A stretch of 64,000 nt of DNA from Sulfuricurvum sp. (GTDB lineage Bacteria > Campylobacterota > Campylobacteria > Campylobacterales > Sulfurimonadaceae): positions 1-64,000 of the forward strand of contig NZ_JAQUHV010000007.1 in NCBI RefSeq assembly GCF_028681615.1, in the 5' to 3' direction. The notes beneath the pieces were generated by a model that was not told the origin of the DNA, ran no database searches, and saw only the letters and a list, made by a program, of their open reading frames with translations. Below, piece by piece: positions 18,075-21,478 of this stretch. Position numbers and translations under genes: made by a program. Position 1 is the first letter of the stretch. Every line of letters starts with the position of its first letter.

Positions 18075-18298
18075 GACGCTCTTGATCGGCCGTTATGATA
18101 ATCCCATAAACGTTTATAATGGCTATCGAGTTCGCTCAATGTCGAATCCACTGTGATAAGCTCATTGGTTCGGGCAAAACGTTTACTGTGTGCTTCATAC
18201 CATTGCGCCATTTCGGTTTTAAGAGCATTGCGTTTTGCAACGGTTTCGGCGATAAGACGACGGATTTCCTCCATCTCGGATGTAATAATCTCAGTCAT
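18071..18298 (-). CDS. unknown 75-residue helical protein of the nif-accessory operon
   Basis: A small, highly charged helical protein (MEEIRRLIAETVAKRNALKT ... DSTLSELDSHYKRLWDYH), probably a two-helix hairpin. A longer frame runs upstream through the NifX-family gene in another phase. The ATG at 18298 is preferred because it overlaps the NifX-like stop by 8 bases and gives a compact product. Small helical proteins of unknown role are common in nif regions, but I cannot match this one to a named family. Confidence 0.6.
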   Translation of the reverse strand: MTEIITSEMEEIRRLIAETVAKRNALKTEMAQWYEAHSKRFARTNELITVDSTLSELDSHYKRLWDYHNGRSRAS

Positions 18299-18686
18299 GA
18301 GTACACCCGCATTCGCACGCGCCGGCAGCGGTGCCCGGATCAAGATAGAGAGCGGCATTTTCCGTCGTAACATGTACTAACGACTCAGACAGTGCGGTTT
18401 CAATGGCTTTGTCCAAAGGCATAGTCTCTTTACCGAGCCAGTAAACATTTATTCCGCCCCGAACCATAACATGAAACGGTCCGTCTCCTAAAAAACCGTA
18501 TAAAGCAGAAGAAGCACCTTGTTCTAACAAATAGTTAGCCGTTTGGATACCGTTACCGCACCCTTCGTTAGCAATTATGGTGTATTCCTTGCTCTTTGGT
18601 TCAACCATAGCAAAAAATTTAGCGTTACCGAAGAGTTTGGTACTCATAGGGGTACCGTTATCGGATTCCACAGGGATGGCGATCAT
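18291..18686 (-). CDS. NifX/NafY-type dinitrogenase iron-molybdenum cofactor protein
   Basis: A 131-residue single-domain protein of the Nitro_FeMo-Co family (NifX, NafY, NifB C-terminus), which carries nitrogenase cofactor precursors between assembly proteins. Family features are the opening IAIPVESDNGTPMSTKLFGNAKFFAMVE, the central CGNGIQTANYLLEQGASSALYGFLGDGPF, and a glycine-rich interior. Unusually it ends in a cysteine-rich tail (GACECGCTHD) that could bind a metal or Fe-S cluster. It is the first gene of a five-gene minus-strand operon and divergent from the NifU fusion gene. Confidence 0.82.
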   Translation of the reverse strand: MIAIPVESDNGTPMSTKLFGNAKFFAMVEPKSKEYTIIANEGCGNGIQTANYLLEQGASSALYGFLGDGPFHVMVRGGINVYWLGKETMPLDKAIETALSESLVHVTTENAALYLDPGTAAGACECGCTHD

Positions 18687-18785
18687 TGCTGTTCCTTTGT
18701 GTGTATTTTGAAACGGTTATGCATTTTTTATTCATAGCATTTAGAACGGCAATTGCAAGGTGAAATTAAATTAGAGATAAAAATT

Positions 18786-18854
18786 CTGCCTCGTTATGAG
18801 GCAAGCTTTAGTGCCATAGCGGCTAGCGTAGCAAATCGGGGCTTTGCTCCGATT
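18786..18854 (+). repeat. dispersed structured repeat, copy A (leader of the NifU fusion gene)
   Basis: Hairpin 1 is TGCCTC (18787-18792), loop GTTAT, GAGGCA (18798-18803). A core follows: AAGCTTTAG (18803-18811), then TGCCATAGCGGC and AGCGTAGC ending at 18832. A distal hairpin, AATCGGGG (18834-18841) with CTCCGATT (18847-18854), has loop CTTTG and one G-U pair. The 30-base core 18803-18832 matches copy B (minus strand, 21049-21020) at 28 positions. The distal hairpin shares its apical GGGCTTTGCTC with copy E at 36.97 kb while the lower stems differ. It lies just upstream of the ATG at 18882, so it would be transcribed as a leader. Confidence 0.75.
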
Positions 18855-18881
18855 GTGTTCAAATCAATAAAAGAGTTAGCA

Positions 18882-19772
18882 ATGGAAGAGCTTCGTACCC
18901 ATTATCACTATTTCAGTAATGAAGAGGGGGACGGTTATGAGATTTATAGCTGTGATTATCCGGATATAAAAGGGTATGGCGATACTTATGAAGAAGCAAT
19001 GTCGGATTTACGTAAAAATTTAAAACGAAACGAGGAGAAAATAATGGAAGCACAATCATTGATGGAGGAAGCGATAGCCGCCTATGATCGTAAAGATTAT
19101 ATGGTTGCAAAATCGATTTGGGAAGGATTGGTCCATACCAATGCGGATGCAATGGTCAATCTCGGAACCATGTATGTCAAAGGATTAGGTGTTGCTAAAA
19201 GTATCACTACCGCATTCACTCTGTTTGAACGTGCGGCATCTATGGGGCATGAAGTGGCATCGTTTTATCTTGGCGGGATGTATGAAAACGGGATCGGCGT
19301 TGCTGCGGATAAAGATCAGTCGATCTGTTATTATACGGTTGCGGCAGAAGCGAATATGCCTACTGCACAGCTGAAACTCGGAATTTTGTTACGTAACGAC
19401 GATATATTGAATTCTATGAAATGGATGATCAGAGCGGCTCATGCCGGAGAAGCTCAAGCACACTCTCTCCTCACCTATGTCAGTAATCAAAATGATGCGT
19501 CCGACATAAATGTCGCATTTCGAATGATGGATGAATCCTCTCAACGAGCCAAAGTCGAAATGGTCGTTGCCGAAAATCTCGCTCCGATCCTCGCAAGTGA
19601 CGGCGGCGGGGTAGAACTTGTGAATTATGTCAGCGGAGATACTCCTGAAATCTGGCTCCGTTATTTGGGTGCGTGTTCGGGATGCCATTTGGGGCCAACC
19701 TCGACAGCAGGGATGATTTTAGAGCAATTTGAAAATGTCATTGATAAAAGAATAGTAATCTATCTTTGGTAG
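18882..19772 (+). CDS. HicB-like / Sel1-repeat / NifU C-terminal fusion protein
   Basis: A 296-residue three-part protein. Residues 5-50 resemble the HicB antitoxin fold (EGDGYEIYSCDYPDIKGYGD then EEAMSDLRKNL). Residues 60-200 contain Sel1/TPR repeats (NLGTMYVKGLGVAKSITTAF; YLGGMYENGIGVAADKDQSI). Residues 220-296 form a NifU C-terminal scaffold domain with CSGC (Cys265, Cys268) after LASDGGGVELV. The NifU domain holds a transient Fe-S cluster for nitrogenase maturation. The ATG at 18882 is chosen because the upstream frame runs through repeat copy A. An alternative ATG at 19044 has a stronger GAGGAG and would omit the HicB part. It heads the plus-strand nif-accessory operon. Confidence 0.75.
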   Translation: MEELRTHYHYFSNEEGDGYEIYSCDYPDIKGYGDTYEEAMSDLRKNLKRNEEKIMEAQSLMEEAIAAYDRKDYMVAKSIWEGLVHTNADAMVNLGTMYVKGLGVAKSITTAFTLFERAASMGHEVASFYLGGMYENGIGVAADKDQSICYYTVAAEANMPTAQLKLGILLRNDDILNSMKWMIRAAHAGEAQAHSLLTYVSNQNDASDINVAFRMMDESSQRAKVEMVVAENLAPILASDGGGVELVNYVSGDTPEIWLRYLGACSGCHLGPTSTAGMILEQFENVIDKRIVIYLW

Positions 19773-19781
19773 GAGAGTATT

Positions 19782-20234
19782 ATGAATGCAATGGTTGCAC
19801 GGGTGGAAGATATTAAAAGCGATGAGTTTTTCAGTTGCATTACCGTACGGGTCAATAATACGGACTTGAAACTGCTTAAAACTGAAGCCCCGAAATGGCT
19901 TCGTGTCGGTGATGAAGTCGAATGCCGTATCCAAGAAGCGGCCATTGCACTTTGTACCGGGAGCAAAGAGGGAAGCGTATCGATCGAAAATCATTTAAGT
20001 GGAGAATTGCAACATTTTCGTAAGGGTGTAGTCCTCAGTGAGGTAAGTGTCAATACTCCGTGCGGACAACTTAATTCTCTTATCACAACGGATGCGTTTG
20101 AACGGATGGAACTTTGCGAGGGGTGTTCGGTCACTTTGCTGCTTAAAGCCGTCGATATCAAACTTCTTCCGGTATTGGATTCAACCTCGTATGAAAATTG
20201 CAAAGATAAATTATATCTAGCCACCAAGGAGTAA
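19782..20234 (+). CDS. di-Mop molybdopterin/molybdate-binding protein (molbindin-like)
   Basis: A 150-residue protein made of two tandem Mop/TOBE-type domains of about 70 residues. First: NAMVARVEDIKSDEFFSCIT ... LRVGDEVECRIQEAAIALCT. Second: FRKGVVLSEVSVNTPCGQLN ... CEGCSVTLLLKAVDIKLLPV. Each has the small beta-barrel pattern with the variant of the V-x-S-x-I-T segment used to bind molybdate or tungstate. In this operon it probably stores or delivers molybdate for FeMo-cofactor synthesis. It lies 9 bases after the NifU fusion gene and 3 before the ferredoxin gene. Confidence 0.8.
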   Translation: MNAMVARVEDIKSDEFFSCITVRVNNTDLKLLKTEAPKWLRVGDEVECRIQEAAIALCTGSKEGSVSIENHLSGELQHFRKGVVLSEVSVNTPCGQLNSLITTDAFERMELCEGCSVTLLLKAVDIKLLPVLDSTSYENCKDKLYLATKE

Positions 20235-20237
20235 ATT

Positions 20238-20612
20238 ATGGCTGTATTAATAACTGATTTATGTATCAACTGCGACGCTTGTGTCGAAGTATGTCCTGTA
20301 GGAGCAATCGCAAGTGAAGGTGATTCACCGCGTGATGACTGGGAATATACTTATGTAAAACCGGAAAAATGTATCGAGTGTGTCGGTCATGCTGAAACAC
20401 CTGCTTGTGCTGCTGAGTGTCCTACTGAGGGTTGTATCGTATGGGATATGCCGTATACGGCAGATTACAACGACTACTATGTCAACAGTTCTGAATATGT
20501 GATCGGTTCGAGTAAAAAACGGGGTGTTCTTACTCCGGAAGTTTCTCCTCAACCGTTCCGTGATGATATCTCTATCGCAATGCGTGAAGCGCGTGAAGCG
20601 GTAGCGGTCTAA
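20238..20612 (+). CDS. 2[4Fe-4S] ferredoxin of nif type (first copy)
   Basis: A 124-residue ferredoxin. The first cluster motif is CINCDACVEVCP near residue 11. The second has the extended spacing of Alvin/Nif ferredoxins: CIECVGHAETPACAAECP, in which nine residues are inserted between the second and third cysteines, then CIVWD. The 40-residue C-terminal tail is hydrophilic. It is probably an electron donor to nitrogenase or to the cofactor-assembly radical enzyme. It is closely related to the ferredoxin at 21083. Genes are spaced 3 bases before and 10 bases after. Confidence 0.88.
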   Translation: MAVLITDLCINCDACVEVCPVGAIASEGDSPRDDWEYTYVKPEKCIECVGHAETPACAAECPTEGCIVWDMPYTADYNDYYVNSSEYVIGSSKKRGVLTPEVSPQPFRDDISIAMREAREAVAV

Positions 20613-20622
20613 AGGATAAGTC

Positions 20623-21006
20623 ATGCTTATCGCGTTTGCTTCATCGGATGGGATCACTGTCAATCAGCATTTTGGATGGTCGAAGAGTTTTGAGCTTTAC
20701 CGTATCACCGAAGATAGTGCCGAATTTGTCAAAACATTGGACAGTTCCCAAGATGCGATTGAAGACGAACACGAAAAACTGGCTTATAAAATAAGTACGG
20801 TCAAAGAAGCAGACATCATGTACTGCTCTCAAATCGGGCCAACCGCTTCCAAAATGGTGTTGGCATCAAAAATATATCCGATGCGCTCTGGAGAAAACGA
20901 TCGAATCGATGAGACGATCGTAAAACTCCAAGAGCTGTTACTGGGCAATCCGCCGCCGTGGTTACAGCGTATTGTTCACACGTCCAAAGATAATAATGCT
21001 ATCTGA
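20623..21006 (+). CDS. nifX: nitrogenase cofactor carrier NifX
   Basis: A 127-residue Nitro_FeMo-Co family protein. The N-terminus MLIAFASSDGITVNQHFGWSKSF is the typical NifX opening, including the conserved DQHFG-like segment (here NQHFG). MYCSQIGPTASKMVLASKIYPMR is the conserved second half with a cysteine that could ligand a cluster. It carries NifB-cofactor or FeMo-co precursors. It is more canonical than the divergently encoded homologue at 18291. Its stop codon at 21006 lies within the distal hairpin of repeat copy B. Confidence 0.87.
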   Translation: MLIAFASSDGITVNQHFGWSKSFELYRITEDSAEFVKTLDSSQDAIEDEHEKLAYKISTVKEADIMYCSQIGPTASKMVLASKIYPMRSGENDRIDETIVKLQELLLGNPPPWLQRIVHTSKDNNAI

Positions 21007-21065
21007 ATACATCCAGATAGCTACGCTTGCCGCTAAGGCACTAAAGCTTGCCCCTATGGGGCAGA
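20999..21065 (-). repeat. dispersed structured repeat, copy B (between nifX and the second ferredoxin)
   Basis: Read on the minus strand: hairpin 1 is TGCCCC, ATA, GGGGCA (21063-21049). The core AAGCTTTAG...AGCGTAGC (21049-21020) follows, with 28 of 30 positions identical to copy A. A distal hairpin, CTATCTG/CAGATAG (21020-21014 with 21005-20999, loop 8), comes last. It fills the only sizeable gap (76 bases) in the plus-strand operon and lies antisense to its transcript, so a hairpin would also form in the sense RNA and could modulate expression between nifX and the ferredoxin. Confidence 0.75.
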
Positions 21066-21082
21066 TTTGCTAAGGAGATAAA

Positions 21083-21478
21083 ATGTCTGTAATTATTGAT
21101 GATACCTGCATCACATGTGATGCGTGTTTGCAACAATGTCCGGTCAATGCGATCGTGGATGATTTGAACAACCCTACCGGGAATAAACGTTATTACGTCC
21201 AACCGGAGAAGTGTATCGAGTGTGTCGGTGTGTATGATGACCCGCAATGTGCGGCGATTTGTCCAAGTATCGGATGTATTACATGGGATATGCCGTTTAC
21301 TAAAGAGTTTGATGCTCATTTCTTGAATGCAGAAATGTATAAACTCGGAGAGAAAAACGGTGTTCCTAAATCTCCGGCATTCCGAGAGAAAAAATATCGT
21401 AAAGATATTCCGAATGAGATGCGCGGTGTCGGACATCTTGTTCAAGAAGAACCTGAGAATCTCGAAGAAGTAGGGTGA
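21083..21478 (+). CDS. 2[4Fe-4S] ferredoxin of nif type (second copy)
   Basis: A 131-residue ferredoxin paralogous to the one at 20238. Cluster motif one is CITCDACLQQCP. Cluster motif two is CIECVGVYDDPQCAAICP with the same inserted loop, followed by CITWD. The shared segment WDMPFTKEFDAHFLNAEMY corresponds to WDMPYTADYNDYYVNSSEY in the first copy, showing tandem duplication with divergence in the tail. It is preceded by AAGGAGATAAA. Its stop overlaps the start of the 115-residue gene (GTGA). Confidence 0.88.
   Translation: MSVIIDDTCITCDACLQQCPVNAIVDDLNNPTGNKRYYVQPEKCIECVGVYDDPQCAAICPSIGCITWDMPFTKEFDAHFLNAEMYKLGEKNGVPKSPAFREKKYRKDIPNEMRGVGHLVQEEPENLEEVG

Follow-up and report, generated by a model that had tools for sequence, protein, structure and literature searches.

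The 64,000-nucleotide stretch of Sulfuricurvum sp. DNA that was analysed here (the window) carries two short, similar sequences on opposite strands, and the question is whether they serve the genes around them or belong to a repeat that merely happens to lie there. A sequence-only reading had left three options, a non-coding RNA, a cis-regulatory leader and a small mobile palindromic unit. The two sequences, copies A and B (Table 1), are the only strong copies within the window. Their cores read AAGCTTTAGTGCC[A/T]TAGCGGC[T/A]AGCGTAGC and are identical at 28 of 30 positions, with A on the plus and B on the minus strand and the two substitutions at 18816 and 18824, just as had been described. 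Both copies also have the first stem that differs between them and still pairs, and both have the second hairpin. The neighbourhood does look nif-accessory, as that reading had proposed, with genes for two Nitro_FeMo-Co proteins, a NifU-like/Sel1 protein, a TOBE protein and two ferredoxins around the copies, and hairpin 2 of copy B contains the stop codon (21004-21006) of the upstream gene. Both the ferredoxin genes (window positions 20238-20612 and 21083-21478) and the Nitro_FeMo-Co (NifX-like) genes (18291-18686 and 20623-21006) are duplicated in this same cluster.

Table 1. Copies A and B of the element and their parts, in window coordinates
Feature	Position	Strand	Remarks
Copy A, whole element (TCTG ... 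GTGTTCAA)	18785..18862	+	in a divergent gap, with a Nitro_FeMo-Co gene (minus) on one side and a Sel1/NifU-like gene (plus) on the other
Copy A, hairpin 1, TGCCTC-GTTAT-GAGGCA	18787..18803	+	six helix pairs, each with double changes among 99 copies
Copy A, invariant 30-base core	18803..18832	+	inner helix GCC (18813-18815)/GGC enclosed by GCT/AGC
Copy A, GTAG tag, directly 5' of hairpin 2	18828..18831	+	
Copy A, hairpin 2, AATCGGGGC-TTT-GCTCCGATT	18834..18854	+	has the family's conserved G.U wobble
Copy B, whole element	20995..21066	-	antisense; flanked by a Nitro_FeMo-Co gene and by a ferredoxin gene, which are codirectional
Copy B, core	21020..21049	-	
Copy B, hairpin 1, TGCCCC-ATA-GGGGCA	21049..21063	-	
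Copy B, hairpin 2, CTATCTGGATGTATTCAGATAG	20999..21020	-	

The element is about 75-90 bases long and is composed of hairpin 1, an invariant core that encloses a small inner hairpin, the tag GTAG, hairpin 2 and a closing CGTT. The earlier suggestion that covarying stems around a fixed core reflect selection on structure is borne out by a comparison of 99 diverse copies, in an alignment that was fitted to the structure: 96.4% of the cells pair, 15 of the 22 pairs have undergone double changes, and covariation scores 0.526, compared with 0.149 (sd 0.007) after shuffling and 0.08-0.11 when the partners are slid (0 of 500 shuffles reach the score). An independent plain MAFFT alignment contains nine pairs with double changes. 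Within the inner core helix, there is one compensatory swap, from GCC/GGC to GGC/GCC, in the copy at L271. Pairing is also kept in place at orthologous sites. The sixth pair of hairpin 1 at the site of copy B is C-G in the genome of the window and in its relatives G070, G084 and G078 and T-A in G110, G074 and G062, and hairpin 2 at L025 has different outer pairs in the own genome and in G070, with pairing kept in both. Nearly every copy has G[TC]AG in front of hairpin 2, and one G.T wobble of this hairpin is conserved in 104 of 160 copies. In stem 2 as a whole, mismatches of the G.T type number 175 and those of the A.C type four (with symmetric acceptance). Since a double-stranded palindrome would lack this asymmetry, there is strong support for folding of the plus strand by itself, either as RNA or as single-stranded DNA. 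The consensus contains no T tract for termination, and terminator-like matches are about as frequent as expected by chance.

A search of the genome and its relatives and a covariance model, both of which had been proposed with the sequence-only reading, show that A and B belong to a dispersed repeat family. The core with at most three mismatches matches the 2.66 Mb genome at 26 places, divided equally between the strands (13 each), whereas a reversed control pattern has 0 matches, and the model, built from 24 copies, gives about 32 matches in this genome at E <1e-3 (copy A, E=1.4e-18; copy B, E=1.3e-17). The copies are neither an isolated pair nor a case of chance covariation, two of the three outcomes that had been named as fatal to the idea. 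The element is present in 128 of the 151 genomes of its own bacterial family, with 1 to at least 29 copies each. A survey of 298 genomes across the phylum recorded it in the own family (f1) and also in three others of the order, f10, f11 and f4; absences in this survey are soft, since the filters were strict. When 84,980 species were scanned for the pattern, the matches listed all belonged to Campylobacterota, and the named records among those matches are Sulfuricurvum, Sulfurimonas, Sulfurospirillum and related MAGs or unclassified relatives. A plasmid BLAST with copy A gave no match. The absence of any recognised riboswitch or named RNA, remarked upon earlier, agrees with an Rfam search in which no family matched the element at gathering or permissive thresholds, and a description of it was not found in the open-access literature searched; by these two measures, the repeat family is apparently undescribed. 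Carriage by phages was considered and rejected: the sole match on a viral contig, L209, sits between chromosomal-type genes (a two-component regulator, a thiE-like gene and flagellin) with an integrase adjoining, so it is host flank and provides no evidence for phage carriage.

The orientation of the copies relative to genes is random. In a set of 126 copies, 43 are sense and 47 antisense (P=0.75), 25 lie in convergent and 11 in divergent gaps, only one lies in a long ORF, and the median distances to the next ORF are 21 and 14 bases. Joined flanks of 22 copies of the own genome were searched in three relatives, and in the closest of them, G070, 20 of the 22 sites match continuously, that is, they are without the element. 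The site of copy B is filled in six congeners and cleanly lacks the element in 18, where the gap measures 11-13 bases; the site of copy A is filled in G070, the only informative congener to have this copy, and empty at the loci of nine congeners. In each lineage, the insertions occupy many different AT-rich intergenic places in either orientation. Judged by these empty and lineage-specific sites, and by the copies that relatives have within RNase P RNA (see below), the element is mobile, and among the options offered at the outset it is the small mobile palindromic unit that fits. Most copies cannot be a conserved non-coding RNA gene with a fixed locus, and the cis-regulatory leader fails because orientation to genes is random and orthologous sites cleanly lack the element. 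The element is neither a leader nor a riboswitch, nor is it specific to nif. Since the remaining copies adjoin unrelated genes, the nif surroundings of A and B are incidental, and a site-specific function, for example at nif, is not required.

In G074, the more distant relative, L009 carries the element, and in G070 and G084 it does not; copies are therefore sometimes lost, or a site is used repeatedly. At L010, one intergenic gap carries the element in opposite orientations in the own genome and in G084 (L320); some gaps have therefore been struck more than once. Copies also lie head to tail in arrays of two to six units (6 x 74 bp at most), and a near-identical genome pair displays mixed junctions, internal deletions and copy-number changes. 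Arrays were seen at L268 (G025; 6 x 74 bp), at L270 (G111; 3 x 94 bp) and in G201 and G340 near 2.68/2.74 Mb, and their copy number differs between the near relatives G201 and G340.

These observations are probably best accounted for by a non-autonomous element that is mobilised in trans through its folded single strand, of the kind that includes REPs, MITEs and "mobile repeat candidates". A putative enzyme encoded elsewhere in the genome would recognise the folded strand by its core and the shape of its hairpins, not by the sequence of the stems, and would copy or excise it and then insert it at new places. Recognition of the fold would account both for a constant shape built from freely varying stems and for the irrelevance of the orientation relative to genes. 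The element carries no gene of its own. Against mobilisation in trans stand the failure to identify a mobilising enzyme, the uneven ends of the element, the loss or repeated use of sites such as L009 and the divergence among the copies, which simple copy-out does not predict: the lineage-specific copies of the own genome are not near-identical, and the nearest sibling differs at about 9-10 of ~70 positions, mostly in hairpin 2 (on average, hairpin 2 diverges by 38% and the core by 9%). The shared copies A, B and L019 have barely changed since the split from G070. The divergent recent copies may come from a diverse source pool or from arms that are rewritten in concert.

More specific mechanisms can be weighed against the same data. 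If hairpin 2 with its tag were a GTAG-REP, it would be moved via single-stranded DNA by a Y1 (HUH) RAYT transposase, as GTAG REPs are thought to be (PMC3733652). The single-stranded folding of the plus strand, the GTAG directly before a variable hairpin, which matches the tag of that superfamily (PMC3733652), the tandem arrays, which resemble REPIN clusters (PMC3116915), and the presence of Y1_Tnp genes in 81 of the 151 family genomes are all consistent with such a REP. We nevertheless consider it unlikely, as Y1_Tnp is lacking in the own genome, despite its recent insertions, and in the copy-rich genomes G070, G078 and G110. One weak element match is all that 28 Y1_Tnp loci (157 kb) contain, so these Y1 genes are not flanked by copies, and Y1 carriers have no more copies than other genomes (means 11.2 and 13.1, P=0.40); linkage to and correlation with Y1/RAYT genes were rejected on these grounds. 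Moreover, IS200/IS605 transposition targets the lagging strand (PMC6006769), whereas in eight genomes with a contig starting at dnaA, with the terminus assumed to lie opposite, the copies have no replication-strand bias (46 leading, 46 lagging), and the signal of target duplication is weak.

A MITE whose double-stranded ends are acted on by a DDE transposase also seems to us improbable. The similarity of flanks adjoining the element ends exceeds that of permuted pairs (z=3.5; control windows 1.2 and -0.1, not significant), as short target duplications would give, and single sites have imperfect direct repeats of 7-9 bp. When the test was rerun without tandem arrays, which had inflated its exact-substring version, the signal was still weak. 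The excess, significant though weak, is suggestive of short, imperfect target duplications, but these would have no uniform length or position, the ends of the element are not uniform either, and some insertions contain 10-20 extra non-conserved bases. Terminal inverted repeats were absent by reading (the ends, AATTCTGCC and GCGTTCAAA, form no inverted pair), and the asymmetry between G.T and A.C mismatches is unexpected under double-strand recognition. A longer relative sharing the 5' end was also not found, as the exact 5' halves in the own genome, G051 and G062 are all parts of whole-element matches.

The concerted rewriting of arms mentioned above would be the hallmark of a bacterial short retroelement or hairpin-copying element that moves via folded RNA or single-stranded DNA, with both arms of hairpin 2 rewritten together in each new copy. 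We regard this as rather doubtful; if true, it would be a mode of mobility undescribed for bacteria, and recent copies would share core and shape only. Still less probable is an RNA-mediated, SINE-like retroposition of a short structured RNA, to which the fold of one strand with G.U pairs, the RNA-like conservation of the core, the insertion in both orientations with weak duplications and no inverted termini and the tolerance of the element inside RNase P RNA (see below) could be attributed; it is opposed by the lack of a 3' tail and of a linked reverse transcriptase, and in bacteria no precedent is known apart from group II introns. That the element is a conserved regulatory RNA or a leader acting on adjoining genes is highly improbable, since the very strong conservation of core and fold and the compensatory changes in place are outweighed by random orientation, lineage-specific sites, frequent convergent gaps, unrelated neighbours and a consensus devoid of a terminator-type T tract.

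The element mobilised in trans can be compared with several known systems. IS200/IS605-derived miniature elements have subterminal hairpins. The present element is similar to them in having a hairpin near each end and no inverted termini, and single-strand recognition would fit, but it occurs without a Y1 transposase in the genome, without lagging-strand bias and without a parent element having been found. With GTAG- or CGTC-tagged REPs and with REPINs/BIMEs (PMC3733652, PMC3116915) it has in common the dispersed intergenic hairpins, an unpaired GTAG before a variable stem, tandem clusters and presumed non-autonomous mobility. However, REPs are single palindromes of 20-40 bp present in hundreds of copies, whereas the element has 75-90 nt, three helices and an invariant core and is present in tens of copies; the GTAG REP superfamily, in addition, has a RAYT gene flanked by the repeat, whereas no such gene is flanked by the element or occurs in its own genome. 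The multi-copy structured motif MRSC-65-2 likewise combines inconsistent orientation with strong covariation (PMC11109978). It was called selfish, consists of one long stem and is found in many phyla, sometimes near transposases (PMC11109978), whereas the element combines three helices with a fixed core and has been seen only in families of Campylobacterales. Many copies, inconsistent orientation and covariation, by which candidates for mobile or repeat sequences are recognised, are all features of the element. Such candidates frequently, though not invariably, adjoin transposase or integrase genes; Y1_Tnp is not linked to the element. It is a widespread, recently active and strongly structured repeat of environmentally important sulfur oxidisers, and it offers a clean system for studying how such tiny repeats are moved in the absence of a resident RAYT and why their shape outlasts the sequence of their stems. 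It also cautions that covarying structured repeats are not necessarily regulatory RNAs.

Parts of the element recur in other repeats. A sister family (L236, L355, L373 and L376) has only the 3' half in common with it (AGCGTAG-hairpin-CGT), while the 5' half differs (GAGCTCTCTGCTGAAG...CTCAGCGTTAGCGTAG), which suggests a modular architecture. Another module, likewise small and structured (AAAACAAGGGTACCGCTCGC-loop-GCGATGTTTCCTTGAGCTC), occurs within the element and within unrelated GTTCGCCCTGAGCCTGTCGAA palindromic repeats, so that hairpin elements are nested in both. It was seen at L225, L227, L233, L018, L364, L366 and L381 and also at L353, L356, L362, L377 and others, with two copies in the own genome and at most seven per congener.

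The element has also entered a structural RNA. Its core and hairpin 2 lie inside RNase P RNA at four loci in different MAGs, with Rfam scores of 227-245 bits over the whole model, at a place that we take to be the P12 helix by comparison with the E. coli molecule. These copies raise the question of how an essential ribozyme tolerates insertions. Rickettsia RPEs and cyanobacterial STRRs, the latter in rnpB, are short palindromic repeats that also enter structural RNA genes; they seem unrelated to the element in sequence and architecture. In two MAGs, the RNase P RNA gene contains two copies of the element, at L133 (5334-5878, inverted orientation) and at L108 (3097-3691).
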